The notes under the pieces: generated by a model
The model's input: only the letters and a program-made list of their open reading frames with translations
What the model was told of the DNA's origin: nothing
Database searches by the model: none
Program-made: the position numbers and the translations under genes
Source: Ulota crispa
Taxonomy: Eukaryota > Streptophyta > Bryopsida > Orthotrichales > Orthotrichaceae
Direction: 5' to 3'
Assembly: GCA_963920765.1 (NCBI GenBank)
Contig: OY987243.1
Coordinates: forward strand, 18,223,419 to 18,287,418
DNA: 64,000 bases
Part shown: positions 8,046 to 38,083 of the stretch, piece by piece
Layout: the number at the start of each line of letters is the position of its first letter
Position numbering within the stretch: the first letter of the stretch is position 1

Positions 8046-8958
8046 CCCCTAAAAGACCAAGCAAAGTTTTCACCAAAAACTCTTCAAAACTGCCATTTTT
8101 AGAGCATCAACCAAATTTGAAAACAAAAACATTTTTATGCATACGTGACCGTAGGATCTTGTAGAAGAATGGTTTTAGAAAATGTGGAAATAATTTCAGA
8201 GTTTTCCACTATGTGGATTGGAAGTTAGAATGGTTTGAATATTCAAAAACGTCTTATGAAAAACCGGGCAACTACCCTTGAGAAGGTGAAATTCCTGCAC
8301 GAAAAAAGGCCATGTGGGTGGTGCTTCTCTAAATTCCTTATTCCACCCAAGTAAAGTACATGTCAAAAAAGTTTCAAATCATTTAGAGTTGTATAACATA
8401 TGGAAAAAAATTAGTAAGTAAAAAGAAGTAGAGAATGATTCAAAACACTAAATTGTTAAGAATTTAATTATGGAAATGAAAAATGCCAATCCCAATGGTC
8501 ATAATGTTGTCATAAACAATATTCATCCTTTATTTTATTTTTTTTCCAAAATAATGAAAATTGAGTAAAATAAAGGACTTCAAAGTTTATTTTGGAGTAG
8601 AGAATCCATAACTGCCTGCAAACAAAAAATCCTCATAACTTTCATCTCGTTGATCCAGATGGAATGATTCAAAGCTTCCTACATTCACATAAATCTTCTA
8701 AACTCGTTTAAAATTTTAGTTTTTGAAAAAAGTGATTTTTAAAAACTTGCACTAGCTTCCCGACAAACATAAAAAACAACATATTAGGCCATAACTTTCT
8801 ACTCATAATTGCAAATGTCATGAAATTTAATGCATATGAAAGAGAAACCTTGTCCCCACATTCAATTAAAATTCAGCCTAAAATATGATAAGCTCCAATC
8901 ACAGGTACCTGCCCAAAATCGCTATGTTTGTCAAAAAGGGGGTCTGGTCCTTTAGGGG
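8046..8958. mobile_element. Non-autonomous TTAA-flanked element, copy D (about 913 bp)
   Basis: The left end TTAACCCCTAAAAGACC and the right end GGTCCTTTAGGGGTTAA are inverted repeats, with TTAA at 8042-8045 and 8959-8962. Nothing beyond TTAA is duplicated in the flanks, which supports TTAA itself as the target site, as in piggyBac-type transposition. No transposase is encoded. Its interior differs from copies A-C. Confidence 0.65.
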
Positions 8959-9458
8959 TTAAGCAAATCATTGATCGAACTTCTAGCCGTGTTTAGTTAG
9001 TGAATTAGATTTCAATAAAAAAAGAATTTCATACTTGTTCTTGAGAAGGTATTCCTATAGTGTAAAAAACCCACGTGTATGCCATATGTGCATAAAGAAT
9101 ACGAAGAGCTAATAATATGACAGCCCTCACAGAAATTATAAGAATCTTTACAAAGAAAGATAAATCCACCCTTCAAAGTACAACCACTTAACACATTCAA
9201 GTGAATGTAGCGTTGTTGAACAAGAAATAAACTTGCTATGGCCGAATGCTATCATTGTGGTTACCCAAAGAACCAATCGAGTGAAAGCCAAGCATACACA
9301 AATTGATCTGGAATATTTAACTGATCCAAGGCTACCTCAAACCTAGGCTGAGCAATCTCAGATTGACAGATGGACCTAACGTTCATGTTGCATTTTTAGG
9401 GAAAAAGAAAGTAAACGTGACAAATCTGAATGAGCTTTCAATATGAATCAAGAGCGTA

Positions 9459-9878
9459 CTCCCTCTGTCCCTCTAGAAACGTCCAAATCAGACACATTTC
9501 TTGTACCACTAAAAGCTCCGTTTTGCTGATTTCAAATGCTGAGGAAGCGTTTGTCATGTTCAATGATCTCACGGGGACAAGTTAAGCAATTAGAGAGCAT
9601 TCTTCTCCTAACTTGGTCTTGCCCTTGCCCATATGAGGTACCATTGTTGCTACTAATCTTTAAATCATCAAGAATGAGGAGCTGGCAGCATGCACAAATA
9701 TGATACTTTTTGCATGGAAGTTGGGTGCCCAAACGGTGACATCAAAGCTAGAGATTTTGCATACATTTGATAGATGGTATATTGATTCTAGAATGCATGT
9801 GTCACTAACACAAAAACTAAAAACATAGTTAATCCTTTACAATGAAGCTTTTTGGACGTTTCAGAGGGACAGAGGGAG
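9459..9878. mobile_element. Stowaway-like MITE (about 420 bp) beside the cytidine deaminase 3' end
   Basis: The left end CTCCCTCTGTCCCTCTAGAA and the right end, whose reverse complement is CTCCCTCTGTCCCTCTGAAA, are terminal inverted repeats. They continue inward as ACGTCCAAA on both sides. TA dinucleotides at 9457-9458 and 9879-9880 match the TA target of Stowaway (Tc1/mariner-derived) MITEs, and CTCCCTC is the classic Stowaway terminus. It ends 45 bp from the deaminase stop codon, so it may lie within or supply the 3' UTR. Confidence 0.85.
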
Positions 9879-9923
9879 TATCTAAGAGGACAAGGGAGGA
9901 GGAGGAATACCTTGCAGATCAGA

Positions 9924-12179
9924 TTAGCTAGTGTGATTACTATCCTCTGTCTTTTGCAGATCAGCTTCGAAGTGATGGAAGGATGCCAAGGGAGCAATGT
10001 GCTGCAAGGCCAGACGGACTGTAGATGCATGCCGCACAGGCGCACCTTTCACCTCCACCAGAACCACAGCCTCGATATCATCATAATCGCCACCTCCTCC
10101 GCAAATAAAAGCCACAATTGCTGCTTGTAGTGCAGGAAGTCCCGGATTATAAGCAGCTGATTCCATGTACGAGCCACTGAAAATCTCGCCTTCCCTCGTG
10201 ACAATCGATAGCCCAGAGGGACAGCTGCTGTAGGGTGCATACGACGCATTGGCAGCCACGAATGCTGCCATTTTGAGGTCCACAAACGACCGGTTGTCGT
10301 CCCGGAGCCACGACCTCAGGCTTGCCTCCTTGGAGAAGTCGCCTTTGAGTTTCTGGACCACCTTCTCCTTGGGTTCCTCGTTGGAAATATTCATGTGAAG
10401 GTTTGAGCAATCGTCTCTACTCAGATCCGGCAATGCAGCGAGGCCATTGCTTCTGGCCTCCAAGAGAAGAGGGAAGTTCTTCGATAGTAAATCATCTGGA
10501 CCAAATCTGTGTGGGAGGAAGTAGGACAGTGGGCGCACTTGCTCGTCCTTTCCATCCGTCACTAACAACCGAATGTCACCTGCATCCCTCAACTCCTGCA
10601 AAAATTGCCTGCAGAAACCAGACACAACAAACACATAAGTTCTTCAAACAAGGAATCAGTAAGTACATCAACATGACAAATGCGGGTGCGTGTATCAAGA
10701 GAGGATGAAGACAACCCCTATGATGGAGCCCTAATTATTTTTTGGGAGAATTTGGTGGATACCCCTGAAGTTTGTGATAATTGTACAAATGCCCTTGGTT
10801 TTTTCAGAAACTGCACACATACCCTTGGACCGTAATCTTCAGGCATTTCTTTTGTTGTGCACGCTACTTACTTCTCCCTTTGTGCGCACACTACTTCTTT
10901 CTTTATTATGCGTGTGCACAAAGGGAGAAGGAAGTGGCATGCACAATAAAAAAAATGCCTGCAAAGTATGGTCCAAGGGTATTTGTGCAATTTCTGAAAA
11001 ACAAAGGGCATTTGTACAAATATCACAAATTTCAGGGGTATCCATCAAATTTTCCCTTACTTTTTTATTTATTAAACCCTAAGCAAAGAGAGACCATGCA
11101 TTTGTTAAGAGCGCTTCGTATGATTTGTGGAATATAGAGGTCTTCAAAGAGCACCCTGAAGCAGGGATCAGGATTTGCATCCCAATATCTTTAAATTTAT
11201 ACGGCCTGAGGGACAAAATCTCGTGGAATGCTGGCTGTCCTCCCCTCCAGATCCTCCATGGTACAAACTTGTCAATGTAGAGGACCAAGGATTCGTTGTT
11301 TGAAAATGGTCAGTTATATTTTTATCATAATGTGTAATTCAAATGAAGCCAATTTTGGTATCACCAGAATCCAATGAAGAGGATTGCATGTATGTATTGA
11401 TCCGAAAATTGAAGGACATTGAGCATAAGAAAGTCCTGGTCTGATTTTACTAAAAACAGCTTTAAACGAGGCTCAATTTTGGCTGGTTGGTGAGTTGAAG
11501 AGAGAGCTGAGATCAATGTTTAAATTGGAATTTTGTGTTTGGTGCTAGTTTGGCGATTGCCTTTTTTTTTTGGGTGCTAATCTGGCTTCTTTCATTTATT
11601 TTTTGATGAAATCCGCATGTAATCCCCAGCTTTTTAGTGCAAAAAGACATCTAAAGCAAATGATTGTGACTTGACATGTGAGAAAAGGGGGCAAAAGCAG
11701 TCCCTTTACTGGTGAATTTTGGCGAATCACACTTAGTGGCTCTGGCGCTAGTTTCAGGCTCCTCAAAAAAAATCTTTTTCTGGCGATTTGTCGCCTCAAA
11801 CAAAAACATTGGTTGAGATGGACCTGCAATGACCGCAAGGGGCAGCCGACACGGCGATGAACACGAGCTTCTGCTCGCCATGCTGCAGCGCATTCGCCAC
11901 CAAAAACTGCTCGGCGTGCACGGAATGATTCAACGGCAGCTTCGGAAACTCCAAGTTCACCCCTCGAAAGATGCGACCGCTCGCCCCCAGCCCCACGGCG
12001 CCCACGTGGAAATTGGAGATCGGAGGGCGAGCCAGCTTCGCCGTCGGCTTCACCAGCGTCGCCAGAACCTGCTCCACCCCCATCCCCGACTCATGCCGCA
12101 ACTTCGCCACCTTCGCGGCCGCTATCACGAACTCCTGCATGGCCACCACCACAGCCAAATCCCCCTCCGGAGACCACAA
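9924..12179 (-). CDS. CDA: Cytidine deaminase, plant two-domain type, 346 aa, two exons
   Basis: The enzyme hydrolyses cytidine and deoxycytidine to the uridine forms in pyrimidine salvage, probably in the cytosol. Exon 1 is 12179-11824 and exon 2 10608-9924; together they give 1,041 nt. The catalytic zinc site is intact: the HAE triad in HSVHAEQFLVAN (exon 1) and PCGHCRQFL, which is split by the intron inside the arginine codon. The second, catalytically degenerate deaminase domain follows in exon 2, with AAFVAANASYAPYSSCPSG and the conserved GSYMESAAYNPGLPALQAA. Length and order match Arabidopsis CDA1. The first ATG gives a short N-terminal extension; an internal Met at residue 14 is an alternative start. 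The single 1.2-kb intron contains a MITE (10744-11056). No organelle signal is obvious. Confidence 0.95.
10744..11056. mobile_element. MULE-type MITE family M1, copy 1, in the deaminase intron (313 bp)
   Basis: The element starts GGGAGAATTTGGTGGATACC and ends with the inverted counterpart GGTATCCATCAAATTTTCCC. The arms pair over most of the element, around a centre rich in TGTGCGCACA-like sequence. The flanks TTATTTTTT (10735-10743) and TTACTTTTT (11057-11065) match at 8 of 9 positions. Three relatives occur at 16894, 25776 and 34954. Confidence 0.88.
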
Positions 12180-12674
12180 AATTTAGCTCCGCAAGCTCAT
12201 CCACAGCCCCGGCGATCAGAATCCCTTCTCTCTCTCGCTCTTTGCGTGCATTCAAAATCTGACCGGAGCGGCACAGTCTTCAGCTCTGAACATGCGCGAT
12301 ATCGCAGTGCTTGAGATTCCGCTTGGGGTATTCTTCAGTTCCAATGTGAAATCACGCAAGAAGCTACTTCCAAGGCAAGGCGAAGCGAGGCAAGGGCACC
12401 TTGCCAGCGCCCGCCACTCTGTGGTGGCACATCCGATGGAAAGGAAGTGTCGGAATTTTACAACTGTACCCGTGACATCGTCAAGAATGGCGAGTGATTC
12501 ACGATGACGGTGGGGCCGCGATTTCCGAGTCGCCTTCGACGATCGGCATTTCAAACGACAACTGCGATGAACGCGAGTTACGCGACAGTTGATCCGTCGT
12601 GCTTACCAACGTGTCAATGGGCTTCCGACGTGGCGTCCTGACTCGGTGGATGAATGTGGCAGTCCCGGACCTCT
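12180..12674. other. Upstream flank of the cytidine deaminase gene
   Basis: This stretch should hold the deaminase promoter and 5' UTR. It is more GC-rich than its surroundings. No open frame has recognisable similarity; those at 12252-12554 (-) and 12292-12507 (+) overlap antisense. Confidence 0.4.
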
Positions 12675-12678
12675 TTAA

Positions 12679-13303
12679 CCCCTCACAGCCCAAGGGGCCA
12701 AATCGGGCTTGTCTAAATTTTATTCAGGATGCTCAATCTTCCAACAAGATTTTTTTAGTGATTATTATTATTTTTAAACTCTTAATGACGTTTAGTTTAG
12801 CATTAGGAGTCTGATTTTGAAAATGAATTAAAGTGATTTGTCTATTCAAGATTTTGTGCAAGGTGTCCATTGCAAATCTTCACTTTTTAGTGTCGCTCTT
12901 GGAAATGAGCTTCAAGTACACTAGAACTAATCACATTAAAAACTCAATTTAAAAGATTGTAGAATAGATTTTGAGGAGCTGTAAATTGAATGGGTCAAGC
13001 ATGTTATATTTTACATACTCGTATTTTATTGGTACCTTCAATTTTAGGTTTGAGATGCAAAAAGAGGATTGAAAGGCTTCAAATCACTTTCGCAGTTTTA
13101 ACACCCTCATGATCAAACATTATAATCTTTCAATCCATAAGTGATATTGTTGTGTTCTTTTCCTATGTGATCTATAACATGTCTACTTTGAATTTGTATG
13201 GTTGCGCTTCAAAGAAATCTAATAAGATTGATCAAAATGCCGGCATTTTATTCACTTTCAAGCAAATTCTAAGATACTCCAAATTACCATGGATGGTGAG
13301 GGG
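12679..13303. mobile_element. Non-autonomous TTAA-type element, copy A (about 625 bp)
   Basis: It begins after TTAA (12675-12678) with CCCCTCACAGCCCAAGGGGCC and ends ATGGTGAGGGG before TTCA (13304-13307), so the right tetranucleotide is mutated. The interior aligns along its whole length with copies B (36658) and C (37439), sharing segments such as TCTATTCAAGATTTTGTG and GATGCAAAAAGAGGATTGAA. No protein is encoded. Confidence 0.75.
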
Positions 13304-13307
13304 TTCA

Positions 13308-13785
13308 CCCCTACTAAACATCAAGGAGGATGAAAAACGTCCTTCGGCTCTAAAGAAACATTCTATGATTCCAAAAAAGTTGTTTTTCATTTGATTTTTT
13401 TCAGAAGTAACCATAAACACATGGTCCATCATGGAAGACAAAAAATTACCTCATGAGATGCATTCATATTTTTTTGTAACGCAAATTCTGATAAGATTCA
13501 GAAGCATGGTGTTAGGTCCCAAGCTACCATTTTTGCAATTTTCATGAGGGCACCATGCACTATTGACTTTTCCAACTTTTTGAAGCAATACTACTGGTGT
13601 CATGTGCAAGAACAATGTAGACTACTAGGCAGGGCAGGCCATGGTGATCCATCTGTCCTTTAAGGGTTAATGTCACCCAACATGTGCATGATCACATGAA
13701 GTTCTCTGTGGTTTTTGCACAAGACAAGCAATTTGTGCAAAGTGTTTTATTGAAACGAGTTTAGGTGTTTGTTCTACCAATGCTA
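13308..13785. other. Non-coding sequence before the assembly gap
   Basis: No gene is seen. The segment CTGTCCTTTAAGGGTTAA ending at 13680 resembles the right terminus of the TTAA family and may be a solitary end of another copy. Confidence 0.35.
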
Positions 13786-13985
13786 NNNNNNNNNNNNNNN
13801 NNNNNNNNNNNNNNNNNNNNNNNNNNNNNNNNNNNNNNNNNNNNNNNNNNNNNNNNNNNNNNNNNNNNNNNNNNNNNNNNNNNNNNNNNNNNNNNNNNNN
13901 NNNNNNNNNNNNNNNNNNNNNNNNNNNNNNNNNNNNNNNNNNNNNNNNNNNNNNNNNNNNNNNNNNNNNNNNNNNNNNNNNNNNN
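13786..13985. other. Assembly gap (200 N)
   Basis: Exactly 200 unknown bases; the round number suggests a fixed-size scaffolding placeholder rather than a measured distance. Confidence 0.99.
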
Positions 13986-14126
13986 AAACTAAAGGTTGCA
14001 AAATCATGCGTGCAAACAATACACGATTAGGATAAATACAATCAAGAAAAACCTTACTAGCTATGACTGTGTTAGTGTTGTTGGCTAAATGCATTAAGTT
14101 TCTTGATTTTGTTTTGTTTGTGTTGA

Positions 14127-14351
14127 CCCCTAAAGGGCCCTTGGGCTCTGGAGATACGATACTAAATACAGTCACAACCAATATTCAAAAGTGTGAATAA
14201 GCTAGAAATTAAGTGTTACAACCATACATATTGAAGGGTTGTATGATGGTGGGTGCATTAAAAAAAATTGGAAAACCCTCATAGCAGCTCAAATATGTTT
14301 GTACATACAACCGTACATACGGTTGCAAAGGGCTTTTGGGCCATTCAAGGG
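14127..14351. mobile_element. Possible short TTAA-type element, copy F (about 225 bp)
   Basis: TTGA at 14123-14126 is followed by CCCCTAAAGGGCCCTTGGGC, and the right end GGGCCATTCAAGGGTTAA is an imperfect inverted match, with TTAA at 14352-14355. The ends resemble the other TTAA-family members but the match is weaker. The centre carries a small CCGTACATACGG palindrome. No coding capacity. Confidence 0.45.
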
Positions 14352-14521
14352 TTAAATTGTAACAAATATAAATAACATAAAAGATTCTAGAGGAAGACAA
14401 AAATTTAGGTTCAAAAAGAAAGAAGACCATTTAAGAGCAAAATTATAATACATATCACATGCTTATAACTAGTCAATCTACCCAATGAAAATACACTACA
14501 AAACAAAGCATATTTCTTTAA

Positions 14522-14927
14522 GGGAGTTGATATGGGCACACCTTGGGTTTGATATATGCACATCCCCAAGGTAAATTTTAGATTTTTACCATCAAAAAGC
14601 TGAATTCAAAAATTTTGAATTCAAATTTGGACTTAGGGACCTTGCTGTAGTCATAAATTGTAAAGGAGGTTACAATTGAACAACACCCAATGAAAAAGCT
14701 TAGCCTTTTTTACAACAAAAAGAAAAGTAATAATTTACCCCTTAGCTAAGTTATTTTAATTGGTGTTGTTCAATTGTAACCTCCTTCTTGGTTCTAGACT
14801 AAATCAAGGTTCCTAAGTCCAAATCTGAATTTAAGATTTTCTAATTCATCTTTTCGTGGTAAAAATCTAAAATTTATCAAAGGGGGTGTGCATATATCAA
14901 ACCCCTGGTGTGCTCATATCAATTTCC
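14522..14927. mobile_element. MITE with long inverted repeat (about 406 bp)
   Basis: The left arm starts near GGGAGTTGATATGGGCACAC and continues as GGGTTTGATATATGCACA. The right arm ends TGTGCATATATCAAACCC followed by GTGTGCTCATATCAATTTCC. The inner arms also pair, sharing GGTTACAATTGAACAACACC in opposite orientations near 14670 and 14765. The element is a near-complete hairpin with no coding capacity. Exact ends and target duplication are uncertain. Confidence 0.75.
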
Positions 14928-15707
14928 TTCTTTAATAGCAATTAAAGAATGATATACCAAAGTGGTATCTAAGAAGTACAAAAGGATTTTTCAGTATCAA
15001 ATGTGGGCATGATAATTGTGTCATTAACCAATATTTTTTGATATCACGTTTAAAAAAAAATGCTTGTTCGATCGTGGAAGATCAATTATAATAATGAAAT
15101 CCAGAAATCCATGGTAAGTTTGAACATGGTAAATCTTGGGATCTAAAAAACAGAGGTGATATCAAAGAAAGTATGGTGCGAGAACAAAGGATCTCATACT
15201 GTACAAGGTCTAATTACAAAACAAAATATGTGATATCATAAACGGTCTGACGAGAGAATGATGGAGATGATAACAGAGAGTTCTGGTGTAATGTTTCATT
15301 TCTGTCTAGTTCATGAGAAACCCATTCGGAACTTCAACACAGAAAGCCATCATGACATGAGGTGGTATGAGTGACTCAAGGGCAAGTCAGCGAGTCAGAA
15401 GATATGCAGCCACTCCATGCCCTTTAGATGGACTGGCGTTAGATTTACTTTTATCGATGCAAGCTATGGCTGGCGGGCGTACCTTCTTTCCCATTGCTGT
15501 AATCATTCTAGGACTACTAGAAGTCGATTTCACAGTATATCTCCTTGGGTATGTTCAGTTCGAAGCCGTGGCATTTGCCAGCAATTTGACTCCGGAAGCA
15601 GCAGCTGGTTCTCAGTCAAGACGAATCTCAAATGCATCTGTTTCTTCAGACTCTACAACAGGTGCATTTTGGAATAGTAAAATGGTCCTGCTAGACGATC
15701 AATATAT
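14928..15707. other. Downstream flank of the PWWP gene; no supported gene
   Basis: The sequence lies 3' of the PWWP-gene stop codon and probably includes its 3' UTR. A 114-codon open frame on + at 15367-15711 shows no family likeness. On - the segment from about 15656 after a TTGTAG acceptor stays open for 40 codons and could be an alternative last exon of the PWWP gene, but nothing supports it further. Confidence 0.35.
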
Positions 15708-18700: not shown

Positions 18701-20147
18701 AGTTGCAGTAAGATAGTCACAGCAAGAAATCATAAGGAGAGTAGCATTCCACAGTTGATTGAACAGAAATACCTGAGTCACTCTCGCTATCGTGCACCTC
18801 TTGGGCAACATCAATCTGAAATGAACCGTCGCATTGTGACTGAGCCTCTTCTTTCAGAGATGAACGATCCTCAAAATCACTGCTGCCTATATCTGACTCC
18901 CTCTGCCTCGCACTCTGCTGCTCATTGTCATCTGCGCAGCAAACAATGTTCAGACACAACAATTCCTCGTCTCTGTTCATCATCTCTGAGGTACTCAAAA
19001 CTCAGCCGAATATTGATCTCCATGCTCATATATTAGTAAAAGTGTAGAGCTCATAACGTGTCACAATGAACGCTCATACGCATTCAGAATGTTTATCGAT
19101 TCACACGCCCAATTTTATGATAATCAATAGGTTCATACCTAGTATTGTGAAAGATTAAAAGTCGCCAATTTGAGGATCAAAGACCCACTGCATAGCAATA
19201 CAGCCAGTGCTTTGAGAGTTTGTGACTGATCTCCGTTTCAGGCTTGGATAAACAGAACCTTCAATACAGTAAGTTTGGTTTGAGAAATCAAAAGTGCTGG
19301 AGGCGCTCCTTCAAGATCAGAAAACAGGAGACTCAATCCTTCAAGCCATTGATCTGCTATCACCTGTCAGATGATTGACCCAATCCTCAGGAAGGTGACA
19401 CGTCAATAGAGGTAAACTACATACAGCGTCCTGAGTGAATGACCACTACCAGTGCTTTAGCCAAATGTTGATCGATGTGTAGTGCGATCGAATGACAAGA
19501 AATTAGACGAAATTCCCAATCGTTGAACAGACTGTCAGTGGCTTGGAAACTGGCTACAACCATATCTTGCGCAGAGGAATTAGAGAGCTTACGCGAGCGT
19601 AAGAGATTCACTTTAAAGACAGGCAAACACTAACGACCTGGAAGGTATATAGGATCTGAAAATCCCCTTTAGACACCGCGAAGCACACAATAAAATATTC
19701 GTTCAGTAAAGGCCCCAGATGATACGAAACGGATTCAAGTAACATGGTCGTGGATCCAAAACAACAAAAAGGAGCCTGCGCACAACGTTGGATGTTCCTA
19801 CAGTTTCATGTTTCGAGGAGGAGATAATTCCTCACACTACATCAGACTTCGAGCTCTAGTTTCAAAATGCTCTTTGAACACAGTCCTGGAAACATCAGGC
19901 ACCCAGTAGTGTTCTAATACTCTCAACATCGACAGCCAAATCACAGAACAGAATGTTTCAACCATCCATACATCGATTTCGAGAAATTTAAGCATAATGG
20001 AAAGTTTTGCTGCAAACCTCGAAGGTCTACCACGTGGTTCTCATAGCTGTCCGAGTTGTAAGCTGTTTCAACAATCTTCGTGGTCTTGACTTTATCGTTC
20101 TGCACTCCTAGTTTACCACGACCGCGTGCGACCCGCAAGGGCGCCAT
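15708..20147 (-). CDS. PWWP-domain protein, acidic N-terminus, about 430 aa, nine exons (last exon tentative)
   Basis: The PWWP fold reads methylated histone tails and DNA, so a nuclear chromatin role is likely. Exons in order: 20147-20018, 18931-18773, 18623-18408, 18197-18134, 17916-17874, 17332-17276, 16755-16653, 16446-16346, then about 16136-15708. The first eight are phase-consistent, totalling 873 nt. Residues 44-145 are acidic and Ser-rich. The PWWP domain follows, with GQLVWAKFARFPWWPAEVR (exon 3), VLVRFFGTYDYGW (exons 4-5) and VDPKVGLSEFD (exon 5). Next are a Lys-rich helix (ERSKIKKKALQKGIEEALEF) and a basic RRAARKRKPK stretch (exon 8), a likely nuclear signal. The last exon contains SYYVSDMLSSIRLVRCEVRK, which I do not recognise; its acceptor is a guess. 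The donor of exon 3 was chosen by phase over GAG/gtccgt. The intron between exons 6 and 7 carries a MITE (16894-17207). Confidence 0.82.
16894..17207. mobile_element. MULE-type MITE family M1, copy 2, in a PWWP-gene intron (314 bp)
   Basis: The ends GGGAAAATTTCATGGATACC and its inverted partner at the right are near-perfect repeats. The flanking 9-mer TAAAATATA occurs exactly at 16885-16893 and 17208-17216, the cleanest target duplication in this family. The arms pair around a central TGCGTACGCA palindrome. It lies in the intron between exons 6 and 7 of the PWWP gene. Confidence 0.93.
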
Positions 20148-22397
20148 AGCTGTTTTATATCCCTACAACCACAGTCATTCACAATCAGTAAAACCAAAGA
20201 AATAATGTCAAAAAAAATATGAGATTCTCCGAGTCAAAAAGTACTCGCCAATCTAAGCATGAGGCAGGCCAAGTACTAAGCGAGAACTGAAGAGGGTCTT
20301 TATGCAGAGGTCACTACGTACTCCCAGCGGGAAAGAGTGCTGTCAATGCCGGAAAGCGACATAAAACAAATCCATTTAAGAACAGTAGTAGGCCTTTCTT
20401 TTCATAAACATGGAATAGTCACAAAGTGCGAGTTCCAGGCTGTTCCTAACGGGCTATAGCCAAGGTTTTCCAGAAGTTTCGCCAAAGTTTGATTATAAAG
20501 AGGCATTCTTGCAAAAAGACACAAAGGATGAGGCGAAGCAACACATATAAAAAGCAGTCCACAAGTTCGTCCATTCTTCTCCAAAAAATTTAGAGAGGAC
20601 ACAGAGTTGTTGCGGAGAAACTCAAAAAGTCGTCGGATTAACCTCAAGCACTGAAGCCTCCGCACGGATACGAACAGCACTGTGAATTGCACGATTGCCT
20701 CAGAATCTCACAAAACGCTTTAATGAACTCCTAATATCAATACCGTGAACTGAAAGAGAATCACAAAAGTTGCCAGCACATAACCATCAATTGACACTGA
20801 AAACCTAGAGAATGAACGGTTCCGCGGGTAGTTCAGCAACTATAGTAGAACGGGAATCGAGAAATCAAAGAGCAGAACAAAAATCAATATTATCAGAAAC
20901 CCGAAAACATACATTCGCGATAAATTACAGAACCAGAAGCTCAAAAAGAAGGGGGGACGAAGGGCGAGGTTGCAAAGCAATCGATTTCGAGTCCTTGAAT
21001 TTCCGTTCACCACATTGCAAGAAACAGCAGATCGGTGACTACACATTACTAACCCCTCCTCGACCATAAACTACGCAATAACCACCAGATCGGTATACCA
21101 GCCCTACGGGCAGAAAATTATAAAAACAAAAACAGTCTACCAAACGTGAATCAAGAAATCGGCAAAGCTTAACAAGAATTTACAAAAGCTCTTTCAAAAT
21201 CTGAACACAAAGAATCGCAATGAATGACGAAACAAACACTCTCAAAAAAGGATTGGAGTACGAGGTGGCAAATTAACCAACTCGAAGTCCTTGAATTTCC
21301 GCCACAACAAACAGCAGGCCGATAGCTACACAATGCTGCCACCTCCTTGACCAAAACTACATAATGATTGCAACTGCGTAACGAACCCTAGCCTAAAATC
21401 AACCCGAAAAGAAAGTAACGAAAAAAAACAAGAACTATACCAGCAAGACCAAACGATACATACTCGAAAAGAAATATCCGCATTGATTCACGAGTGACAA
21501 AGACAACGCGACAGACCTAGAAACGGCCTAACAAACAATTCTCAAACCCTAGGCGGTAGCAAAGTAAGAAACAAAAAAGAAAATACTGCAAAAACACTGC
21601 CAAAAATATCAAAATTCAAAAGAAAGCTCACTGATCTCATTGAAATAGACATCAACGACACACGGAGTTGTTAATGACACATGCTAATGATTCTTTGAAA
21701 ATTGATGATCACGGTTTCAGAGAAGTTCGTGCCACTTACTGAAGTTGATCAAGAAATCTCCTGGCGTTCAGTCACCATCATCGACAGAAATATGCAGCGC
21801 GAACTGAGCCGGAATTGAGAAATTGATCATAAAGTGTGGCGCGAAGCATTGTCTTGAAGTCTTCGAGCTCAGGAGTTCAGAATTCCGTAGCAAGGCAGGG
21901 AGGGGCATCGTTCAACTGATTTTGAAGCCGGGACACAACTGGCGTTGTGCAGATAAGCAAAAGAAAATCCCCGCTTTCAGTCTCCACGGTGCCCGGTGTG
22001 AAAAGGGGACCTCGTACCTCGCATACCTTGAGAATTAAAAGTTGTGTTTCTGCTGATGATGGATTCTGCATTGGCCTGGTTGGGCTTGACCCGGGGTTTA
22101 ATTTTTTTTTTTTTTTTTTTTTTTTTCAGGGTAGAGCAACTAGCGCCCTAGAATGCAGGCAGGTTTCGAAAATTGGGCTAAAATTGGAAAGAGTGAATGA
22201 TCAGCAGAAGTTCATCTAAAAAAATTACAAATATAAGCTACTTTCATCCAAAATATGATGAATTGGGTTTCTGCTCTACAATGGATTTGGCAATTTCATC
22301 TAGTTTTTCATGGGAATTTCTTTGTGTAGTGATTGTCAGCGGCTTGTCAAGGTAACATTTAGGCAAAAATTTGTTAAGAAATTAAACGATGGTTTGA
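20148..22397. other. 5' flank and probable 5' UTR of the PWWP gene
   Basis: No protein-coding similarity is seen on either strand. A diverged tandem duplication of roughly 150 bp occupies about 20930-21085 and 21225-21385, both holding GTCCTTGAATTTCCG followed by an AACAGCAG-type segment. A homopolymer of about 25 T lies at 22102-22126. The PWWP promoter must be in this region, but its position is not evident. Confidence 0.45.
20930..21385. repeat. Diverged local duplication upstream of the PWWP gene
   Basis: Two stretches about 290 bp apart share GTCCTTGAATTTCCG, then AACAGCAG, then a GACTACACA or AGCTACACA motif, CCTCC(T)TGACCA, and AACTAC at similar spacing. It looks like an old tandem duplication in the 5' flank or 5' UTR. 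Confidence 0.6.
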
Positions 22398-23265
22398 CCC
22401 CTAAATGCCCAAGGGTTCTTTTCTCATTTTTGGAAGGCAGTTTTGAAGTTTTTGAATTGTCATTGCAAGATCATTATTAAACATCAAAACAAAATTGGAA
22501 ATATAGGGTCTTGAACTTCAATGCTTCTAGATGATGATATAAAAAAAATCCTTCAAAAGTCACGTGGATGTTAAGATATTTATTAATGAATGTGGATGAG
22601 TACAAAATTTTCTATTTTTTTGGAGGTGCCTGAAACTTGTTGTGTAAATTGGCAACTTTTGTGTACAAAATTGGGAAACAATCACCTATGATAGTTTAGT
22701 ATTTGTTGTTGTTGTTGTTTCAAAACTAATGACTCCTCTTCCAAATCCATGACCACCTCTCACAAATGAGCTTGCAATGGAACTATCAAAAAGCTACCAC
22801 TTAATACAAAGAAAATGTTTAGCTCCAATTATTGATTCAAAATCATAATGTATGAAATAGAATTCAATTGTGAATGAATTCTAATTTGTATACCAAAAAC
22901 ACATTTAAATTTTGTTAAATGGTGAAATTTCAATAGTAGGGCCTTCACTACCCAAGGGAGTGCCCAAGAGACATCTTGATTATAATCTCAGCTTCATGCT
23001 TATTTTTTCAATGTGGCAACTTGGCATAGGCTCCTTAATGACACTATCACGCTTTTTAATGTGTACTAGGCATGCTTGTAGTTTAGCTTCCACCAAAAAT
23101 AGTTGGAATGTAATATGCAAGAAATTCAAATTGAATGCTAAAGTTGGCTTCAAACCACAACTTCTCCAAAAAAAACAAAAAAACAAAAAAAATTCAAATC
23201 TCTATCTTCAACAAGGTTTTCAAATTTCCTAAACACTCAAATTTGGTGCTTTGGGCATTTATGGG
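22398..23265. mobile_element. Non-autonomous TTAA-type element, copy E (about 868 bp)
   Basis: The left end, TTGA then CCCCTAAATGCCCAAGG, and the right end TTTGGGCATTTATGGGTTAA are inverted repeats. TTAA at 23266-23269 is intact; the left tetranucleotide reads TTGA (22394-22397). The terminal bases match those of copy C. The interior is different and has no transposase. A 106-codon open frame inside (22912-23232) is not recognisable. Confidence 0.65.
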
Positions 23266-23269
23266 TTAA

Positions 23270-25775: not shown

Positions 25776-26077
25776 GGGAAAATTTCATGGATACCCTGAA
25801 GTTTGTAATAGATACCCCTACTTTTTTAGAAATATCACAAATACCCTTGAACCAAAAATTTTAGGTGCTTATTTTGTTGTGCATGCCACTTCCCTTCTTC
25901 CTTTATGTGCACACACATCAAGAATGAAGTAGTTTTTGCACAATGGGAAAAGGAAATGACATACATAACAAAACAAATGTCTACATGTTTTGGTCCAAGG
26001 GTATTTTTGAAATTTCTGAAAAAGCAAGGATATTCGTGAAAATATTGCAAACTTCAGGGGTATTCATGAATTTTCCC
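25776..26077. mobile_element. MULE-type MITE family M1, copy 3 (302 bp)
   Basis: It starts GGGAAAATTTCATGGATACC and ends in the inverted ATTCATGAATTTTCCC. The flanks TATATATGA (25767-25775) and TATATATAA (26078-26086) agree at 8 of 9 positions. It is about 1 kb upstream of the LMBD2 start codon and shares the central CTTCCCTTCTTCCTTT-type arm with copy 2. Confidence 0.88.
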
Positions 26078-26086
26078 TATATATAA

Positions 26087-30000: not shown

Positions 30001-33000
30001 TCTGGGACTGTTTAAAGTTGTAGTAGGTTGAAATTAGGCAGGTCACCATTTCTCGTACTTCAATCAGAATCGTGAATCTCTTTGCTGCGTACTTGATTCA
30101 AACGTTGTTGGACGTTCTGCCGATTGTTAATCGATATAAAAGGTATTTCAGTGCGGCTCACGGCGTTTTCATAATGGCGACATCAGGCGATATCAATTGA
30201 TGCTGTGGGTTAGCGGTGGAGAGTTGCGGAAATGCTGTAGGATCTAGTGTCAAGCTTTGTATTTAACAGCTTGCATTGCTTGCGTTATTAGAGGGGCAGA
30301 AACAATAGTCTGTAACTTACGGTTTCTTTTTGAATGGGCAGTGACTACGGCTCATGTGTTTGGGAGGCATTAGAGTTGGAAGAGACAGTGAAGAACATTC
30401 AGCGTGGAAGTGGTACTGATGGGTGAGTTTGCTGCATCTTCTTGTGGTGACTGCAAATCATTGTTTAGATGAATATTCTCCGGAATTGCATTCTGATTTT
30501 CATTTCATTTCTTTTTTATTTGTTCGTTACTTCAACTCAATACATGTAGTCTGATCCTAAGTATTTTACCCTCTTCTTTTTATCCTCTAATTTGGTATTT
30601 TATGGTGTGTTTTCAGACGGTTTATTTCCACTATTCACCCAGCACGTACTGGCCCCTTAGCTAACGTGCTTGATATAGCTGGTAAGCAACCTAATGATGA
30701 GTACCTGCAGTAATTTGTTAGTTGTATATTCATACAGCCTTGTTCTCTAGAAATAGCTGTTTTAATATGAATGAAACTAACTTATGTATGCGGTTGAGAT
30801 GGCATATCTTCTGTATGATGTGTTCATGGATATGTGCTGCCACTTTCTGGGTGTTCGGTTGTTTTACTGCATGGGGTGCACCTCATTTTCCTCCGAATTG
30901 TGGATTTGACTGCAGAATATGTGTGGCGCTGCCAACTTAGACAGTACGTGGTTAAAGTTTCAGCTGTAATGCTGGGAACCATGTCCGTTGCCATTGTAAT
31001 GGCTGAAGCCACCCTCATGTTTGAAGCAGATCTGTCTCTCTTTTCTTTGATACTCAAAGGGATGGGTGAATCGGAAATTCTTGTGCAGGTTAGTTATTAC
31101 TGTTCTGGCATTCTCACTCGGAAGTTCTTATATGGTTACATGTGTCTGACTCGCATGTGCGGTGATATGTAGACCTACGGGATTGAGCCACGCGCAGTGA
31201 ATTTGGGCACCCCCGCTTTTTGTTTTTATTTTAAAATTAAGTTCAGAATTAACGATCTGTAAGTCAACGGCTAGGTGTGGCTGCATTTGGCTGTAGTCAT
31301 ACTATGGTAGAGGTTGGATGTAGATTTTGCTTGATTTCAGTCAATTGTACTGAGCTCAAGTAACTAGCATTTAGCAAACAAGCTGCCTGCGTCTGGTACG
31401 CCATGGCTTCTGTATCATGGATAGAGTATGCTGTCTCTTAACACATGCATTATGTGGTGCAGGTAGTTGCTTTCATACCGTTGGTCTACATGTGCGTGTG
31501 CACATACTTTTCTCTCATTAGGTTGGGGATGATGACGATCTATTATCTAGCGCCGAAGCACACCAGCTCCGTGAGCTTGCTCATGATTTGCTCGTATGTG
31601 ACCCTTTACGTTGTTTTTCATTACCTTGCCTCTTGTGCCTTTTGTCGTGACAGTCACATTGTTGAAATGACACTGAAGCTCATGCCAACACACATTTCAG
31701 ATGTTGAATAGTCTCCGATTTTTCAAGAACCCGTTGAGGTAACGGAGTTGGGCTATGTTGCGTTTACACTAATACAGTGCACTCGTCTATTTTCCAGTAT
31801 GATTGCCAGATATGCGGCACCTCTTTGCTACAACTTTTTGAGCTTAATTAAGCTCAAAAATTCGGATGGAAGCGACCAGAAAACTGTTTTTGAAGACGTA
31901 AGTTCATGTTCCACTTTGGAGAGTCTGGTTGTAATTGGACATTCAGAGCCAATGTAGTGGTCATTATTGCAGCTTAGGGTTTGAATTGTGCAATCAGTTG
32001 TATGGTTGCTATTAAATTTACTGAATGGCTACACGCTAAAATCCACCAACTATGCGGATTGGACGTTTTCAAGTGACGTGGTGCCTTTTGGGAGTCGTCT
32101 TATTTTTATGTGTGATTTATGGATGCAGAAAATGGGTTCTATGACAGTCATCCCATATATTGGAGATGAAAGATTCAACACATTCTATCCAATATTTATG
32201 GTGATTTACACAGGCTTATTAGCGAGCAATGTTCTGAATCGAGTAATGGATTACTTTGGAAGCTGGCGATATTTTCGAAACCATGATGCTGAAGATGGTG
32301 AAGGATTTGATCCATCAGGCCTTATCATTCTTCGGAAAGGTACTTGAATCATCGAGGGTGTCCGAATTCGTCCTGCAAAGTTATTTTTATGTGAAAGCTA
32401 CTTGTGAACGAATTTTTATTTTCATTGCATGATTTGCTTTTGAATTCCCTTGAAGTGGTATCCGCAGTATTTTTTTTCTTAGTGTTATTAACTGTCAAAG
32501 ATCTCCGCTTTAATTTTGAGTTCCTTGATGTTATTATTATCGATGATTCTTTAGGTTTTAGGCATTCTCAGTTGTAAGTTAGGATCTCTTGTTGTGGACA
32601 GTGGCATGAAGGTCAAATAGTAGGTTTATTTGTTTTTTTACCATCAAAATTTAAGTTTTACATTGTTGAGATTCTCCTTGGACTTATGACTTCAACGTTG
32701 CTGTTGCATAGAGCGCTCTTGGCTTGAACAAGATGCAGAGTTAGGACGGTAGGTGATATACATGAAGTGTTTTTTTTTTTTGTTTCATTATTTCTTGTCA
32801 ATTGTCGAAGAAACAGGTTTCACTTTTGAGTTTCTTTATGTTATTATTAGTTGAAACAATATATAGATATGTTGAAACTCTTGCTAGTAGACATCCTGAA
32901 TTCCAAATCTAGGAACTTTTGTTATGGATGAGTGACATTAAGGCCAGCAGATAGTTTTCTTGTCTTTCCACTATCAACTTTCTACTCTATTGTTCCGTTT

Positions 33001-33880
33001 ACACTCTCCTTGTTCTCATCACTTCAATGTTGCTGGTGGGCAGAGCGCTCTTGGCTTGATCAAGGTATGGTGGTGGGAGAGAACGTTGTGCCCTTGGCTC
33101 GTAACTTCGGCAGTGCAGAGTTGGACATAGAGGTTGAAGCTATCCTTGGAAAGGTATTCATCACACCTTATGCTTCTCCTGATTTTAGTGGGTAGATAAA
33201 TATTTTTAACATGAAAGCCAGTCTACGCGTTCACTGCTTGTTAAGCAAGTTGTTACAAACGATTTATGTGTTTCTGTTTGAGGGTGAGCGTTATGTTAGC
33301 TCCCCACTTATATCTTGGTAGCAGCTGGATAATCTCTGTTATGTTTGGCTAATGAATGAATACTTACTGTCAGAAGGTACCTCCGGAGAAGCAAAGCCTT
33401 AAACCAACCTCTCACGTCAGGGAAGACAGCCATGATGGCTCTGGAAATCGTCATCAGGGGCGTGTGGAAAAGCCCTTATCTAAGGATGCCCTCGTTAACA
33501 AGTATACAACTCTGAAAGTATCTGATGGCAACTACAGAAATCAGTCAAAACCACCCCTTAGTGGCGATACTAGAGTGTCAGCTGGGAACATTCCGACTCC
33601 TCCAGCACCTACTCCAGCCTTGATAGACTTGCATGCGGCGCCGTCTGTAGCGCCTCAGCAATTGAACAATACAGATGGAACTGGTTTCACATTGAATTGG
33701 GATACGATGAAGTCCGGGTTGCAGAATTTCGGAACCAAACGATTTGCTCCAATGCGACAGGAGAGGCCCCAACTGCAGCCTACTTCTTCGCAGACACTGG
33801 ATAGCATTTTTCAGGGTCTTGGAAAGAAACGGGAGGTAACTGATGAAGAGGATGGCCTTGACTTGCGATTGTTACGATAG
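27036..33880 (+). CDS. LMBD2-type (LMBR1 domain) multi-pass membrane protein, 741 aa, 14 exons
   Basis: LMBR1-domain proteins are multi-pass membrane proteins; the plant LMBD2 role is not well defined. Exons: 27036-27203, 28152-28231, 28364-28525, 28862-29072, 29432-29518, 29802-29941, 30342-30422, 30617-30681, 30916-31088, 31463-31593, 31798-31897, 32129-32339, 33044-33153 and 33374-33880. All junctions are GT-AG and in phase, summing to 2,226 nt. Residues 1-56 hold the first two membrane segments and end in LVPADIW. Exon 4 carries CSNTFGLVTGAFLLGFGLVE, exon 9 a hydrophobic VMLGTMSVAIVMAEATLMF helix, and exons 10-12 further membrane segments and GFDPSGLIIL. The last 168 residues form a hydrophilic, proline-rich tail with DSIFQGL near the end, as in plant homologues of about 730 aa. 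The start is the first ATG and matches family N-termini. An ancient duplicate of the exon 13 start lies in intron 12 (32704-32743). Confidence 0.96.
32450..33080 (+). repeat. Tandem duplication covering the start of LMBD2 exon 13 and its upstream intron
   Basis: Two stretches about 335 bp apart align: roughly 32460-32740 with 32770-33075. Both hold TTGA(A/G)TT...ATGTTATTATTA, a GACTTCAA or CACTTCAA segment with GTTGCTG, and AGAGCGCTCTTGGCTTGA followed by CAAG. The downstream copy is exon 13. The upstream copy (32704-32743) has its own ATAG acceptor and a possible ACG/gtaggt donor but is not in a usable phase. Confidence 0.75.
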
Positions 33881-34953
33881 CACACGGGTAAGAACGCCCC
33901 CTTGTAGTAGTTGCATCATGTTTTTCTTAACATTTTAGGTTCTCAGAAGTCCTGCATTAGGAACATTCTTTGTAGAGGGTTAAACGGCTACCTTTTCCCC
34001 TTGACTGCAGTGCATCTATGCGCCTTTAGGTGGTGCTTATAGACAGCCAGCCCATTCGAACCCCGTTGTGTACTACTGACCCGGGTTGATCGATAATATT
34101 GGAGTACCATATTTTTCTTTAGTGTAATTATTTACTGATAGACATGCGCTCTCTGGAGGCATGGATTAGCTACCTGCTGGTTCTGCCGTAGTGATTCCCG
34201 AGCAGTAACCTCAATCAGCATGCTTTGATTTGATAATCCTTTGCAATGTGAACTGCATTGGTTGTACCTTCTTTGCGTGAGGGAATTCCTTCTTGTTCGT
34301 GTGCCTCTGTAAAGTTGGAATTACGGCCTATGGTGAGCTGTAACCGAGCAAATTTCTCTGGCTGCTGTATGGAGGACTGGAGGACTGAATTTTTTAGTCA
34401 CAGGCAAATTGCTGCCAATGGGTTACAATTTTTAGTCACACAAGCTACAAGCTGCAATAGATTAGCTGAAGTCCGAGAATGGTATTTGAAAGTTTTATAA
34501 GAGCTCAAAGCGCAGGTGGTAAATTTTTTAGATTTGTACTGTACTTTGTTGAATACTATGCAATGCGTGTCCAATCTGAATTTGTTATGGCGTTCTTTGG
34601 GGTAGTGTCAGAGATAGTTGATCTCGTCTTCTTGTTGCCTTAACAGTTGTAAAACACATTGAATATCTTTGTAGTAATTCTCTGCATCCTAACTTAGTCA
34701 AAGGTTTAATGTGATACAAATACATAAGCTTACTACATAATAGGGGGTTTCAAATATGCCGTTCATCACCAAAATCGTTCACGTGAATAAGATTTGTGAA
34801 AAATGTGTGCAAGTCACTCTGTGAACAAGCCATGACGATCTTTTGGAGGTTGTCATAGCGTATTCATTGGTGAACAAAAACTTGATCACGACCATTCATT
34901 CATTGTTTTTTTGAGATATATGAAACCCCCTTAATGTTGTGCAGTAGAAACAA
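33881..34953 (+). other. 3' flank and probable 3' UTR of the LMBD2-type gene
   Basis: No further coding similarity is present. The open frame at 34258-34500 is not recognisable. The poly(A) site cannot be placed with confidence. Confidence 0.4.
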
Positions 34954-35256
34954 GGGAAATTCTCATGGATACCCTTGTAGTTTGAAATATTCTCATAGAT
35001 ACCCCTGCTTTTTCAGAAATATCAAAAACACCCTTTGACAAAAAAAAATTAGGTGTTTATTTTGTTATGCATGTCACTTTTTTCCATTTGTGCCTTGACT
35101 ACTTCTTTCTTGTTATGTGTGCGCACAAAGGAAGAACAGAAGTGGCATGCACTACAAAACAAACACCTATTTTTTTGGTCCAAGGGTATTTGTGACATTT
35201 TTGAAAAAGTAGGGGTATCTATTAAAATATTGCAAATTACAAGGGTATCCATGAAA
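34954..35256. mobile_element. MULE-type MITE family M1, copy 4 (about 303 bp, right end eroded)
   Basis: It begins GGGAAATTCTCATGGATACC and its right arm GGGTATCCATGAAA lacks the last TTTTCCC bases. The flanks GAAACAA (34947-34953) and TGAAACAA (35257-35264) are consistent with a partly preserved target duplication. The central arms match copies 1-3. Confidence 0.8.
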
Positions 35257-35339
35257 TGAAACAATCTGGCAATGTGAAGCGATGGGGGTGTCAAAGATGA
35301 AACTACATTACTGCCATGGATGGTGTAGAGTCTTTAGGT

Positions 35340-35751
35340 AAGGTAGAAACACCATTCTTTCACCCCTCCCTAAGTCCGCACCCTACTTTTGAGGGCTTCT
35401 CTCCACCCATTGTTGAACTCAAAGTAGTGCAATGAATATCTCTTGCACAAGTAAATTTGGCCACATGTCAAGTGCTAAGCTACTTTGAGATGGTTAGGAT
35501 TGGGACCCTCAAGTGCCATTATAGGAACACATCCAAGCACTTTCAAGGGTAGTTTAGAGTTGCTAATAGGGACCCTATGAGCTGCAACTTTGCCCTTTAA
35601 TATAAAATAATATATAGTACTCTTTTCCACAAAAGTTATGTTCCAAAACAACTTGTTGAAAGGCTAACCCTATTAAAAAAATTCTTGAATTTTTGAAGAC
35701 CTTGAGGTACCCCAAACCCTTTAAACGGTTGGGTATGGGTCTGTCTACCTT
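35340..35751. mobile_element. MITE family M2, copy 1 (about 412 bp)
   Basis: The left end AAGGTAGAAACACC and right end GGTCTGTCTACCTT are imperfect inverted repeats. The interior aligns along its length with the copy at 38154, sharing TTATAGGAACACATCCAAGC and TTGCCCTTTAATAT. No coding capacity. Confidence 0.78.
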
Positions 35752-36653
35752 AAGTTACCAAAAGTCAGAGTGTGAGCCAATTTAGACCAAGATGTTTGGA
35801 GCCAACATCCAAAAGCCCTTGTCCAATGCTTCATCCAATTGAGTTTGGAGGGAAAATTGTCATGTCATTGTGGATTTGTCCGTTTGGTGCATGTTTTCAC
35901 ACCGGGCACCGGATGTCCGGTGTAGGAGCACTTTTATTCCTTTTATTCTTAGTTGACATGATTTTCTCTTTACATCACTTCATGTGAGAAGGAGTGTTTT
36001 AGACGATGGTAAGGATTTGGGGTCACCTTGAGAGGTGACCCCAAATCTTCACCGCTACATGTGAACTCCCCTCTAATTTTGACAAAAAAAGATGATAACA
36101 TGACGTTTCCATCTACCGGCCATCCGCTTCATTGTAAAAGCTCTAATATTCAAAACCCTCCCATTGGCCAATAAGATACTCTTGAATCTTGAGCGCTTCC
36201 CGGTCTGCACCGGCCCAACTAAGTTAGGGCGGTACACAAACTTACAAATGGTCGCTAGCATTGGTCCCACAGAACCATCCCCTGGCAGTCCGGGGAGTTA
36301 TTTTAACTTGGTGGACTTCTACTTCTATTTTAGTTCACTCGGATTTTTGTTTTTTTAATTGGATATGTCTTTTTTGGTTACTCAACAACCTCTCAATTTG
36401 TTCATACTCAGTTGGTTTCTCAAATTTAAAAACAAAATAAGTATATTGAAAAATTCCAAATTATATTGTGTTTTATTAGAATTTTTTTGGATTATTAAGG
36501 GGTTTGTTTATTTTTATTTTTAATGCACAAAGATCCTTGGATAGATTTGGACCAAGCAAAGACTCACCATCTTGAGTTTAAGAATTGAAATTCCACTAAG
36601 TGATAGGATCCCACGTTGGGAGTCCACACTTGTTTTGGAGTTTGGTGAGTACA
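35752..36653. other. Non-coding sequence with a perfect short hairpin
   Basis: No gene is recognised; the open frames at 35772-35987, 36073-36270 and 36164-36358 lack family similarity. A hairpin with 15-bp perfect arms lies at 36014-36047 (see the separate entry). Confidence 0.4.
36014..36047. repeat. Perfect 15-bp hairpin, 4-nt loop
   Basis: GATTTGGGGTCACCT is followed by TGAG and then its exact inverse AGGTGACCCCAAATC. Weaker pairing continues outward (GGTAAG against CTTCACC). The flanking sequence does not resemble the MITEs in this window. No T-run follows, so it is not an obvious terminator. Confidence 0.85.
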
Positions 36654-36657
36654 TTAA

Positions 36658-37299
36658 CCCCTCACCGTCCAAGGGGCCTAAATTGGGCCCTTTTGAATTT
36701 TATTCAAAGATGTGTGACCTTTTTTCAATAATTTTTTAGTAATTATTATTATTTTTAAATACTTATTGAAGTCTAGTTTTAGCATTAGGAGTTTGATTTT
36801 GAAAATGAATTAAAGCAATTTGTCTATTCAAGATTTTGTGTTAGGGTGTCCACTGCAAATCTTCACTTTCTAGTGTTGAAGGCTCTTGGAAATGAGCCTC
36901 AAGTACACTAGAACTTGGAGAAAAATCACATTAAAAACTCAATTTAAAAAATTGTAGAATAGATTTTGAGAAGCCGTAAATTGATTGGGGTTATGCATGT
37001 TATACTTTACATACTTATATATTTTTGGTACCCTTAGTTATAGGTTTGAGATGCAAAAAGAGGATTGAAAGATTCAAATCACTTTTGCAGGTTTAACATC
37101 CTCATGATCAAACATTATAATCTTTCAATCCACAAGTGATATTGTTGTGATTTCTTTTCCTATGTGATCTATAACATGTCTACTTTGAATTTGTACGCTT
37201 GCGCTTCATAGAAGATTGATAAGATTGATCAAAATGCCGGCATTTTGTTCACTTTCAAGAAATTCTGAGATACTCAAAAATACCATGGGCGGTGAGGGG
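36658..37299. mobile_element. Non-autonomous TTAA-type element, copy B (642 bp)
   Basis: The left TTAA (36654-36657) plus CCCCTCACCGTCCAAGG and the right CCATGGGCGGTGAGGGG plus TTAA (37300-37303) form clear terminal inverted repeats. No longer duplication exists in the flanks. The interior is homologous to copies A and C in the same orientation. This is the best-preserved member. Confidence 0.85.
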
Positions 37300-37438
37300 T
37301 TAAAGAGATGTGCAAGCTTCAATTTTTGGAACATGAAGCTTCTTCAAGAGTTTTGTTCAACTATCATTTGGACTTGAGGTCAAATATCTTAGAATATGGA
37401 TATCTAAACTTGATACCATCTTTTCATGGAGAAATTAA

Positions 37439-38083
37439 CCCCTAAATGCTCAAGGCACCACATTTTGGTGCCGACAATACTTCAAAGTTCAATAAAACCT
37501 AACTAAGCTGCTATTTTTAGAATTTAATATTTTAGAATTATTCTTTTTAAAGTCTAGTTTTAGCATCAAAAACCTGATTTTGAAAATTATTGATAGTGAA
37601 ATTTCTATTCAAGATTTTGTGCAAGGTTGTCCATTGCAATCTTGACTTTTTTAGTATTGAGAGCTCATGAAAATGAGCCTCAAATACACTAGATCTTGGA
37701 GAAAAATTCACACTAGAACTTCATTTAAAAAAATTGTGAAAGATTTTGAAAAGCCATAAATGGATTGGAGTTATTTATCTTATGTCCGTTAACCTTGTAT
37801 TTTTTTGGTGACCAACAGTTTAGATTTGACATGCGAAAGGAGGATTGAAAGACTTGAAATCATTTTTTCTCTTTTAACGCCCTCTTGATCAAACATTATA
37901 ATCTTTTAATCCATAAGCAATAATGTTGTATTTTCTTTTCCTATGTGATGTCTAGCATATCTAGTTTGAATTTGTATGGTTACAATTTAAAAAAAATTTG
38001 ATACAACTTATCAAAATGTTAACTTTTTGTTATGTTCAAAGAAAATTCCTAGAAACTCAAAACAAGCCTTGGGCATTTAGGGG
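37439..38083. mobile_element. Non-autonomous TTAA-type element, copy C (645 bp)
   Basis: TTAA (37435-37438) then CCCCTAAATGCTCAAGGC, and GCCTTGGGCATTTAGGGG then TTAA (38084-38087). The interior shares most of its length with copies A and B, while the outer 10 bases resemble copies D and E. It lies only 135 bp from copy B. Confidence 0.85.

Follow-up and report, generated by a model that had tools for sequence, protein, structure and literature searches.

Six short elements lie in the window (the whole stretch of DNA analysed here, 64,000 nucleotides), and they belong to very large families in the genome of the piggyBac type, cut-and-paste transposons known chiefly from animals. They are given below together with a lone end, and all element coordinates count in the flanking TTAA or its variant.

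8042..8962 (element proper 8046-8958), unstranded: MITE of the ~920-bp family, TTAA at both sides
12675..13307, unstranded: MITE of the ~650-bp family, flanked by TTAA (left) and TTCA (right)
13654..13670, minus strand: tentative lone right end of the CCCTT type, TTAACCCTTAAAGGACA, read from sequence only, for which no partner was found
14123..14355, unstranded: short MITE of the ~230-bp family, flanked by TTGA (left) and TTAA (right), its right end being of the CCCTT type
22394..23269, unstranded: MITE of the ~870-930-bp family, flanked by TTGA (left) and TTAA (right), with CCCAT at its right end
36654..37303, unstranded: MITE of the ~650-bp family, TTAA at both sides
37435..38087, unstranded: MITE of the ~650-bp family, TTAA at both sides

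The inverted ends are short and start with CCC, as do those characteristic of piggyBac (CCCTT, CCCTC and similar); those of 8042-8962 extend over 18 nt including TTAA and are 94% identical. A first-pass annotation of this DNA had described CCCCT ends directly inside TTAA, a description that is exact at both ends of 8042-8962, 36654-37303 and 37435-38087 and only near-exact for the other three elements, which carry variants of the flank or of the end. Its statement that the flanks of the three cleanest copies (8046, 36658 and 37439 by their first base inside TTAA) have nothing else in common agrees with our comparison of the outer 20 bp, where we saw no obvious likeness except TTAA.

All six elements, counted by that annotation as five and a possible sixth, have relatives elsewhere in the genome, and we regard all six as real because even the three imperfect ones match relatives over long stretches. 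Element 12675-13307 is 86% identical over 650 bp to 36654-37303 and 71% identical over 513 bp to an element in locus L011, 22394-23269 and an L013 element are 72% identical over 943 bp, and 14123-14355 is 78% identical to an element in L005 over 233 bp, its full length. The elements at 12675, 36654 and 37435 resemble one another at 75-86%, internal sequence included, as had been noted for three members, and the other three represent three further families. The six elements thus fall into four families, of ~650 bp (three members) and of ~920, ~870-930 and ~230 bp (one member each). Scanning the window for Rfam families and for tRNAs gave no matches.

End patterns and copy borders across the genome

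The genome comprises 274,817,297 bases in 157 contigs. A genome-wide collection of the ends, which the first-pass annotation had proposed, gave 22,159 forward and 22,175 reverse matches to the pattern TTAACCCCTNA, against 386 and 387 for the reversed-pattern control; a second end type, TTAACCCTTNANNGNCC, had 3,906 and 3,925 matches, compared with 3 and 4 in the control. This abundance of end patterns is real and far above chance.

The association of the ends with TTAA was determined on ends picked by their inner 16 bp alone, with at least 14 of the 16 positions agreeing and the flank disregarded. In a sample of 288,088 bases made of the window and loci L001-L028, TTAA precedes 78 of 90 such ends, while the four bases further out are mixed; this sample is biased, since L001-L008 and L010-L018 had been picked through TTAA matches. 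In the part not picked in this way, which consists of the window and L019-L028 (164,000 bases; the 164-kb sample), TTAA precedes 20 of 24 ends, and in L019-L028 alone (100,000 bases) 13 of 16. The four remaining flanks of the 24 are TCAA (twice), TTGA and GTAC, three of them one base away from TTAA. The reversed end consensus fits only 5 places across all 288 kb. At a looser limit of 13 of 16 positions, where chance matches enter, TTAA is found before 24 of 79 ends of the 164-kb sample. Of the 164,000 bases, 10,292 (6.3%) belong to the 13 reference elements or their relatives, as do 6,326 of the 100,000 bases of L019-L028.

These flanks bear on a different reading, in which elements starting A-CCCCT would have been moved, with a strong preference for TTAA, by a system of the Tc1/mariner type that duplicates 2 bp, TA. 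Of the 24 ends of the 164-kb sample, 23 keep the outermost T, and the nTAA form expected of a TA target accounts for only 1 of the 12 non-TTAA flanks of the 288-kb sample. On the same counts we rejected a Stowaway-like TA duplication with free outer bases, and we regard the TTAA-preferring form as highly improbable, the more so as the transposases found inside TTAA-bounded elements, described below, are of the piggyBac type (PF13843).

For two of the window elements, most copies end at the TTAA borders. When 37435-38087 was used as query together with 100 bp of flanking sequence at either end, and the best 40 of 4,750 candidates were scored, 42 matches were obtained, and 34 of the 41 non-self matches start and stop within 3 bp of both outer TTAA edges. 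A query built likewise from 8042-8962 (best 40 of 4,886 candidates scored) gave 41 matches. Of the 40 non-self ones, 30 come within 3 bp of the TTAA edge on either side, and 39 copies elsewhere in the genome are near full length and 89-92% identical to the window element. For the 650- and 920-bp families together, the best-scoring copies are 87-92% identical to the window copies, values that represent the upper end of the families because only best-scoring copies were scored.

A further MITE, of ~909 bp and with CCCTT ends, adjoins exactly the left TTAA of a transposase-bearing element on contig C4. With a query that held its last 104 bases only, and the best 40 of 1,402 candidates scored, 38 other matches were found at 89-95% identity, 33 of which stop between 1 base before and 3 bases after the last base of TTAA. 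Judged on this short stretch, the CCCTT family looks younger.

TTAA as the duplicated target

Empty sites were looked for by joining the flanks of candidate end pairs and seeking uninterrupted relatives in the 288-kb sample. The 670 end pairs do not equal 670 elements, many being chance pairings of adjacent ends. A junction-spanning match was obtained for 21 pairs; 8 of these were aligned, and the other 13 were judged collectively from the list, and not individually, to be duplicates, composite pairs or element-edge matches.

Among the 8 aligned sites the evidence is clean at one only. The 927-bp element L011:7825-8751 is located inside a repeat and has TTAA on both sides, and all five uninterrupted paralogous sites (two in L013 and one each in L011, L016 and L021, 78-86% identical) have a single TTAA and no other duplication. 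At L023:8676-9633, an element inserted in a member of the 650-bp family, a single TTAA in register is present in 2 of 12 empty relatives, two more have TTAA one base off, and the rest differ. The sole empty relative of the L012 site has one TTAA with gaps nearby, and no TTAA was found in the diverged relatives of the sites in L001, L003, L010, L014 and L022. A longer duplication, which the first-pass annotation had named as an outcome that would count against its reading, was seen at none of the 8 aligned sites, three of which (L001, L012 and L014) have gaps near the junction. Since five uninterrupted paralogues of one insertion each carry a single TTAA, we conclude, as that annotation had proposed, that TTAA is the target and is duplicated on insertion. 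The letters expected of a mariner-type insertion at a TTAA site are identical, so that the L011 result alone cannot separate the two, and it is the flank counts and the transposases that favour the piggyBac reading. A 3-bp TTA or TAA duplication of the PIF/Harbinger (Tourist) kind was rejected, because TTAA stands at both sides of symmetric CCCCT ends, and a 3-bp duplication would make the two ends unequal.

Elements placed back to back over one TTAA, AGGGGTTAACCCCT, were found at 876 places genome-wide and at none with the reversed control. These places agree with a duplicated TTAA serving again as target, and they do not fit TTAA as part of each element's own end, the second outcome that had been named as contrary to the target reading. 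Insertion beside older elements would simply have re-used their TTAA.

piggyBac transposases and their relation to the short elements

The transposase search proposed in the first-pass annotation was carried out with PF13843 (DDE_Tnp_1_7), the piggyBac transposase domain. It gave at least 120 matches over the cut-off, with a best E value of 1.3e-73; 116 of 528 candidates were scored, and joining four split pairs leaves 116 places. The domain was found in none of 14 control genomes, two of which are those of a cyanobacterium and a haloarchaeon, a result uninformative on other plants. Most of the listed copies have stops in the domain, and 10 of the 120 matches are free of them. One open copy, L042 on contig C4, matches the solved structures of piggyBac (6x67) at E 3.6e-20 and of piggyBat (9c0f) at E 1.4e-16.

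Identities among 13 sampled transposase domains are only 31-80%, so that many lineages are represented, and the suggestion of families moved by one transposase finds no support. All three catalytic aspartates, at what we take to be the DDD positions, are present in 7 of the 13 (L029, L031, L032, L033, L034, L038 and L039), and at least one is lost in the other 6, the open copy L042 being without the third. In L039 the three aspartates are combined with a matched domain free of stops. A cysteine-rich stretch, read by eye from a pattern scan, follows the domain in 10 of the 13; it is absent from L031, L036 and L042 and contains a stop in L037 and L040.

Five transposase copies, of two lineages (contigs C3, C10 and C8; contigs C4 and C9), lie in elements of 5.0-5.7 kb that align out to TTAA on both sides. 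For the first lineage, L044 and L029 proved to be one genomic stretch holding a 5,027-bp element, C3:13130262-13135288, with the transposase inside; it runs from TTAACCCCTCATCGCCAAAGGGG to the right end TTAACCCTTCATTGCC, and the lineage starts TTAACCCCTCATCGCC. A query made of the left end of this element and 100 bp of flank was matched by the C10 and C8 copies from base 101, the T that opens TTAA; a fourth copy on C11 (74%) began at 103, and three shorter matches, covering only 36-52 bp, began at 99-101. With the right end as query, the C10 and C8 copies ended at 352 and 351, the latter being the last A of TTAA, the C11 relative stopped at 334, and two weak matches touched the flank only. The C10 and C8 copies each contain a PF13843 match. 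For the second lineage, the right TTAA border of the L042 element is common to relatives on C8, C7 and C9 and its left TTAA border to the C9 relative, which gives a length of ~5.7 kb for the elements of C4 and C9. The border letters were read at both ends of the C3 and C4 elements and at the right end of the C10 element, and the C8 and C9 borders are alignment stops.

The ends of these large elements resemble those of the short ones. The first 30 bp of 36654-37303, TTAA included, are 83% identical to the left end of the C3 element (E 7.7e-4), and the first 31 bp of 12675-13307, likewise with TTAA, are 84% identical to it (E 0.003). An internal 17-bp match between another 650-bp element (E650c) and the C3 element also reaches E 7.7e-4, so that the likeness of the ends counts by its position, first base to first base, and not by its E value. 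Furthermore, with a matrix built from 78 MITE ends and 3,892 control 16-mers, the scores of the two ends of the C3 element and of the right end of the C4 element were reached by 0, 1 and 1 controls. For the left end of the C4 element, GGCTTGGTCGACC, the fit to the matrix is poor, 54 of the 3,892 controls scoring as high; 4 and 1 of these controls outscored the two ends of the 909-bp MITE. This is good evidence that MITEs and transposase-bearing elements share both their type of end and their target.

A search for internal homology between the window families and the few transposase elements read found none, and beyond the terminal ~30 bp we saw no clear likeness between the window elements and the one transposase element compared in full (C3). 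The idea that the short elements are deletion families finds no support in this comparison, where no clear sequence is held in common past those ~30 bp. Because internal homology is not required of a MITE, the assignment of the small elements to piggyBac is based on target and ends.

The Kolobok and Sola3 superfamilies also duplicate TTAA, and either might have moved the small elements while piggyBac was merely co-resident with similar ends, a view with which the lack of internal sequence joining the MITEs to the transposase elements would agree. Against it stand the match of MITE ends to piggyBac-element ends, at 83% over the first 30 bp, and the three of four transposase-element ends that beat the controls on a matrix of MITE ends. 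The piggyBac end motifs CCCTT and CCCTC, given in passages of PMC10813416, fit as well, and we hold a Kolobok or Sola3 origin to be very unlikely. Beside a piggyBac-like system, the first-pass annotation had offered a new superfamily. The piggyBac-like part of that proposal is upheld by the TTAA duplication, the CCC-type ends and the abundant transposases, five of the matches lying inside TTAA-bordered elements. A new superfamily is not needed; nothing speaks for it except that piggyBac is rarely reported in the plant literature surveyed, and as transposase, catalytic residues, C-terminal cysteines, target and ends all fit the existing superfamily, we give it almost no credence.

At the level of sequence, our results establish a TTAA target with its duplication (cleanly at one site), the borders of the copies, their abundance and the presence of piggyBac transposases, together with five transposase elements that have the same target and of whose four scored ends three are of the same kind as the MITE ends. 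The window elements are thus very probably non-autonomous transposons (MITEs) of the piggyBac superfamily, moved by the genome's own piggyBac transposases. The piggyBac transposase encoded by the larger elements would bind ends of the form CCC[C/T]TnAnnGnCC, cut the elements out, presumably by seamless excision, and join them into TTAA sites, which would leave TTAA at both sides. Judging from target and ends, these transposases, or relatives no longer intact, would have moved the window families.

Known piggyBac systems and the plant host

The system described here shares with the piggyBac superfamily, represented by piggyBac (PDB 6x67 and 6x68) and piggyBat (PDB 9c0f), the PF13843 transposase, with DDD in part of the copies, the cysteine-rich C terminus, the TTAA duplication and ends of the CCC[C/T]T type. 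It differs from piggyBac and piggyBat in its green-plant host and in its very large MITE population. Stowaway (Tc1/mariner) and Tourist (PIF/Harbinger) MITEs are likewise short and present in high copy number, with inverted ends and AT-rich targets. The Stowaway duplication is TA, and the transposases of both groups differ from that of piggyBac. Tourist elements duplicate TAA or TTA, according to a passage of PMC10004981, and thus both duplications contrast with the TTAA found here.

According to passages of PMC10813416, piggyBac elements have been isolated from insects, fungi and plants, their end motifs are CACTA, CCCTC, CCCTT and CCCAT, and their target is mostly TTAA; the well-defined piggyBac of that source measures ~2,472 bp, whereas the full-length elements found here reach ~5.0-5.7 kb. 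PiggyBac is one of seven angiosperm MITE superfamilies listed in a passage of PMC10004981 and is among the plant superfamilies named in a passage of PMC10794571; with these lists our elements share the superfamily, which appears there by name only. For the fern Ceratopteris, a passage of PMC6890710 gives 1,230 PiggyBac-labelled copies with 122,417 bp, or 0.00% of the genome, in contrast to 6.3% of the 164-kb sample and 116 PF13843 places here. A text search of a land-plant transposon review (PMC9033089) did not find the name piggyBac, and the titles, abstract openings and passages of the literature searched contained no account of a piggyBac population native to a plant together with its transposases.

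What is unusual in this genome is the scale of the system, 6.3% of the 164-kb sample, and its many transposase lineages. The tens of thousands of TTAA insertions, the more than 100 transposase copies, the L039 copy and the younger-looking CCCTT MITE family lead us to suggest, tentatively, that this plant lineage may have kept a native, multi-lineage piggyBac through long evolution, which would have been, and perhaps still is, a main engine of short-element spread; we consider this possible, although on balance doubtful. The superfamily is already known, and it is the scale and the host that merit the attention of specialists. piggyBac serves as a gene-delivery tool, in plants included, according to a passage of PMC10794571. 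The ~44,000 end-pattern matches offer a native plant system in which to study target choice, silencing and the birth of MITEs, and those who annotate genomes need to be aware of native plant piggyBac.

Nuclear genes for the RuBisCO small subunit and telomeres of the TTTAGGG type mark green-lineage plants. Both are found in this genome: the small-subunit genes, apparently split by introns, lie on contigs C1 and C4 (9 matches), and TTTAGGG arrays occur at the end of contig C1 (at least 100 places), which indicates that the host is a green-lineage plant.

An inverted duplication on contig C1

Mirrored flanks were observed on two of the short piggyBac-type TTAA elements, at positions 1911-2838 and 8795-9722 of a locus taken from contig C1 of the same genome:

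C1:905001-915000, locus L014

Beyond this locus, end matches (places fitting a sequence pattern of the element ends) are mirrored as well, C1:904386 with 917231 and 906153 with 915464, and these outer pairs share with the mirrored elements a common centre at C1:910,816. In a gap-free comparison about this centre, 6,486 of 8,368 positions match. The inverted duplication spans at least some 13 kb.

Transposase matches elsewhere in the genome

Equal-scoring transposase matches in opposite orientation lie about 15 kb apart on contig C2 (36765124, +; 36779670, -) and about 20 kb apart on C7 (18203169, -; 18223004, +); these pairs are perhaps further inverted duplications, or else assembly artefacts. 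At L043 (C1:1180709-1181995) the piggyBac domain is split into two adjacent pieces, each without internal stops, possibly an intron-containing gene or a host-adopted copy.

Other features of the window

A frequent repeat of about 400 bp, distinct from the TTAA families, occupies 14521-14928. It matches one stretch of locus L032 in both orientations, as do its copies from L004, L013, L018, L019, L021 and L025, and therefore looks self-complementary. A partial CACTA-type transposase at 44540-45067 (-) (PF02992 Transposase_21, E 1.3e-34) belongs to a DNA transposon superfamily other than piggyBac. An assembly gap of 200 N (13786-13985) is flanked by two of the window's TTAA elements.
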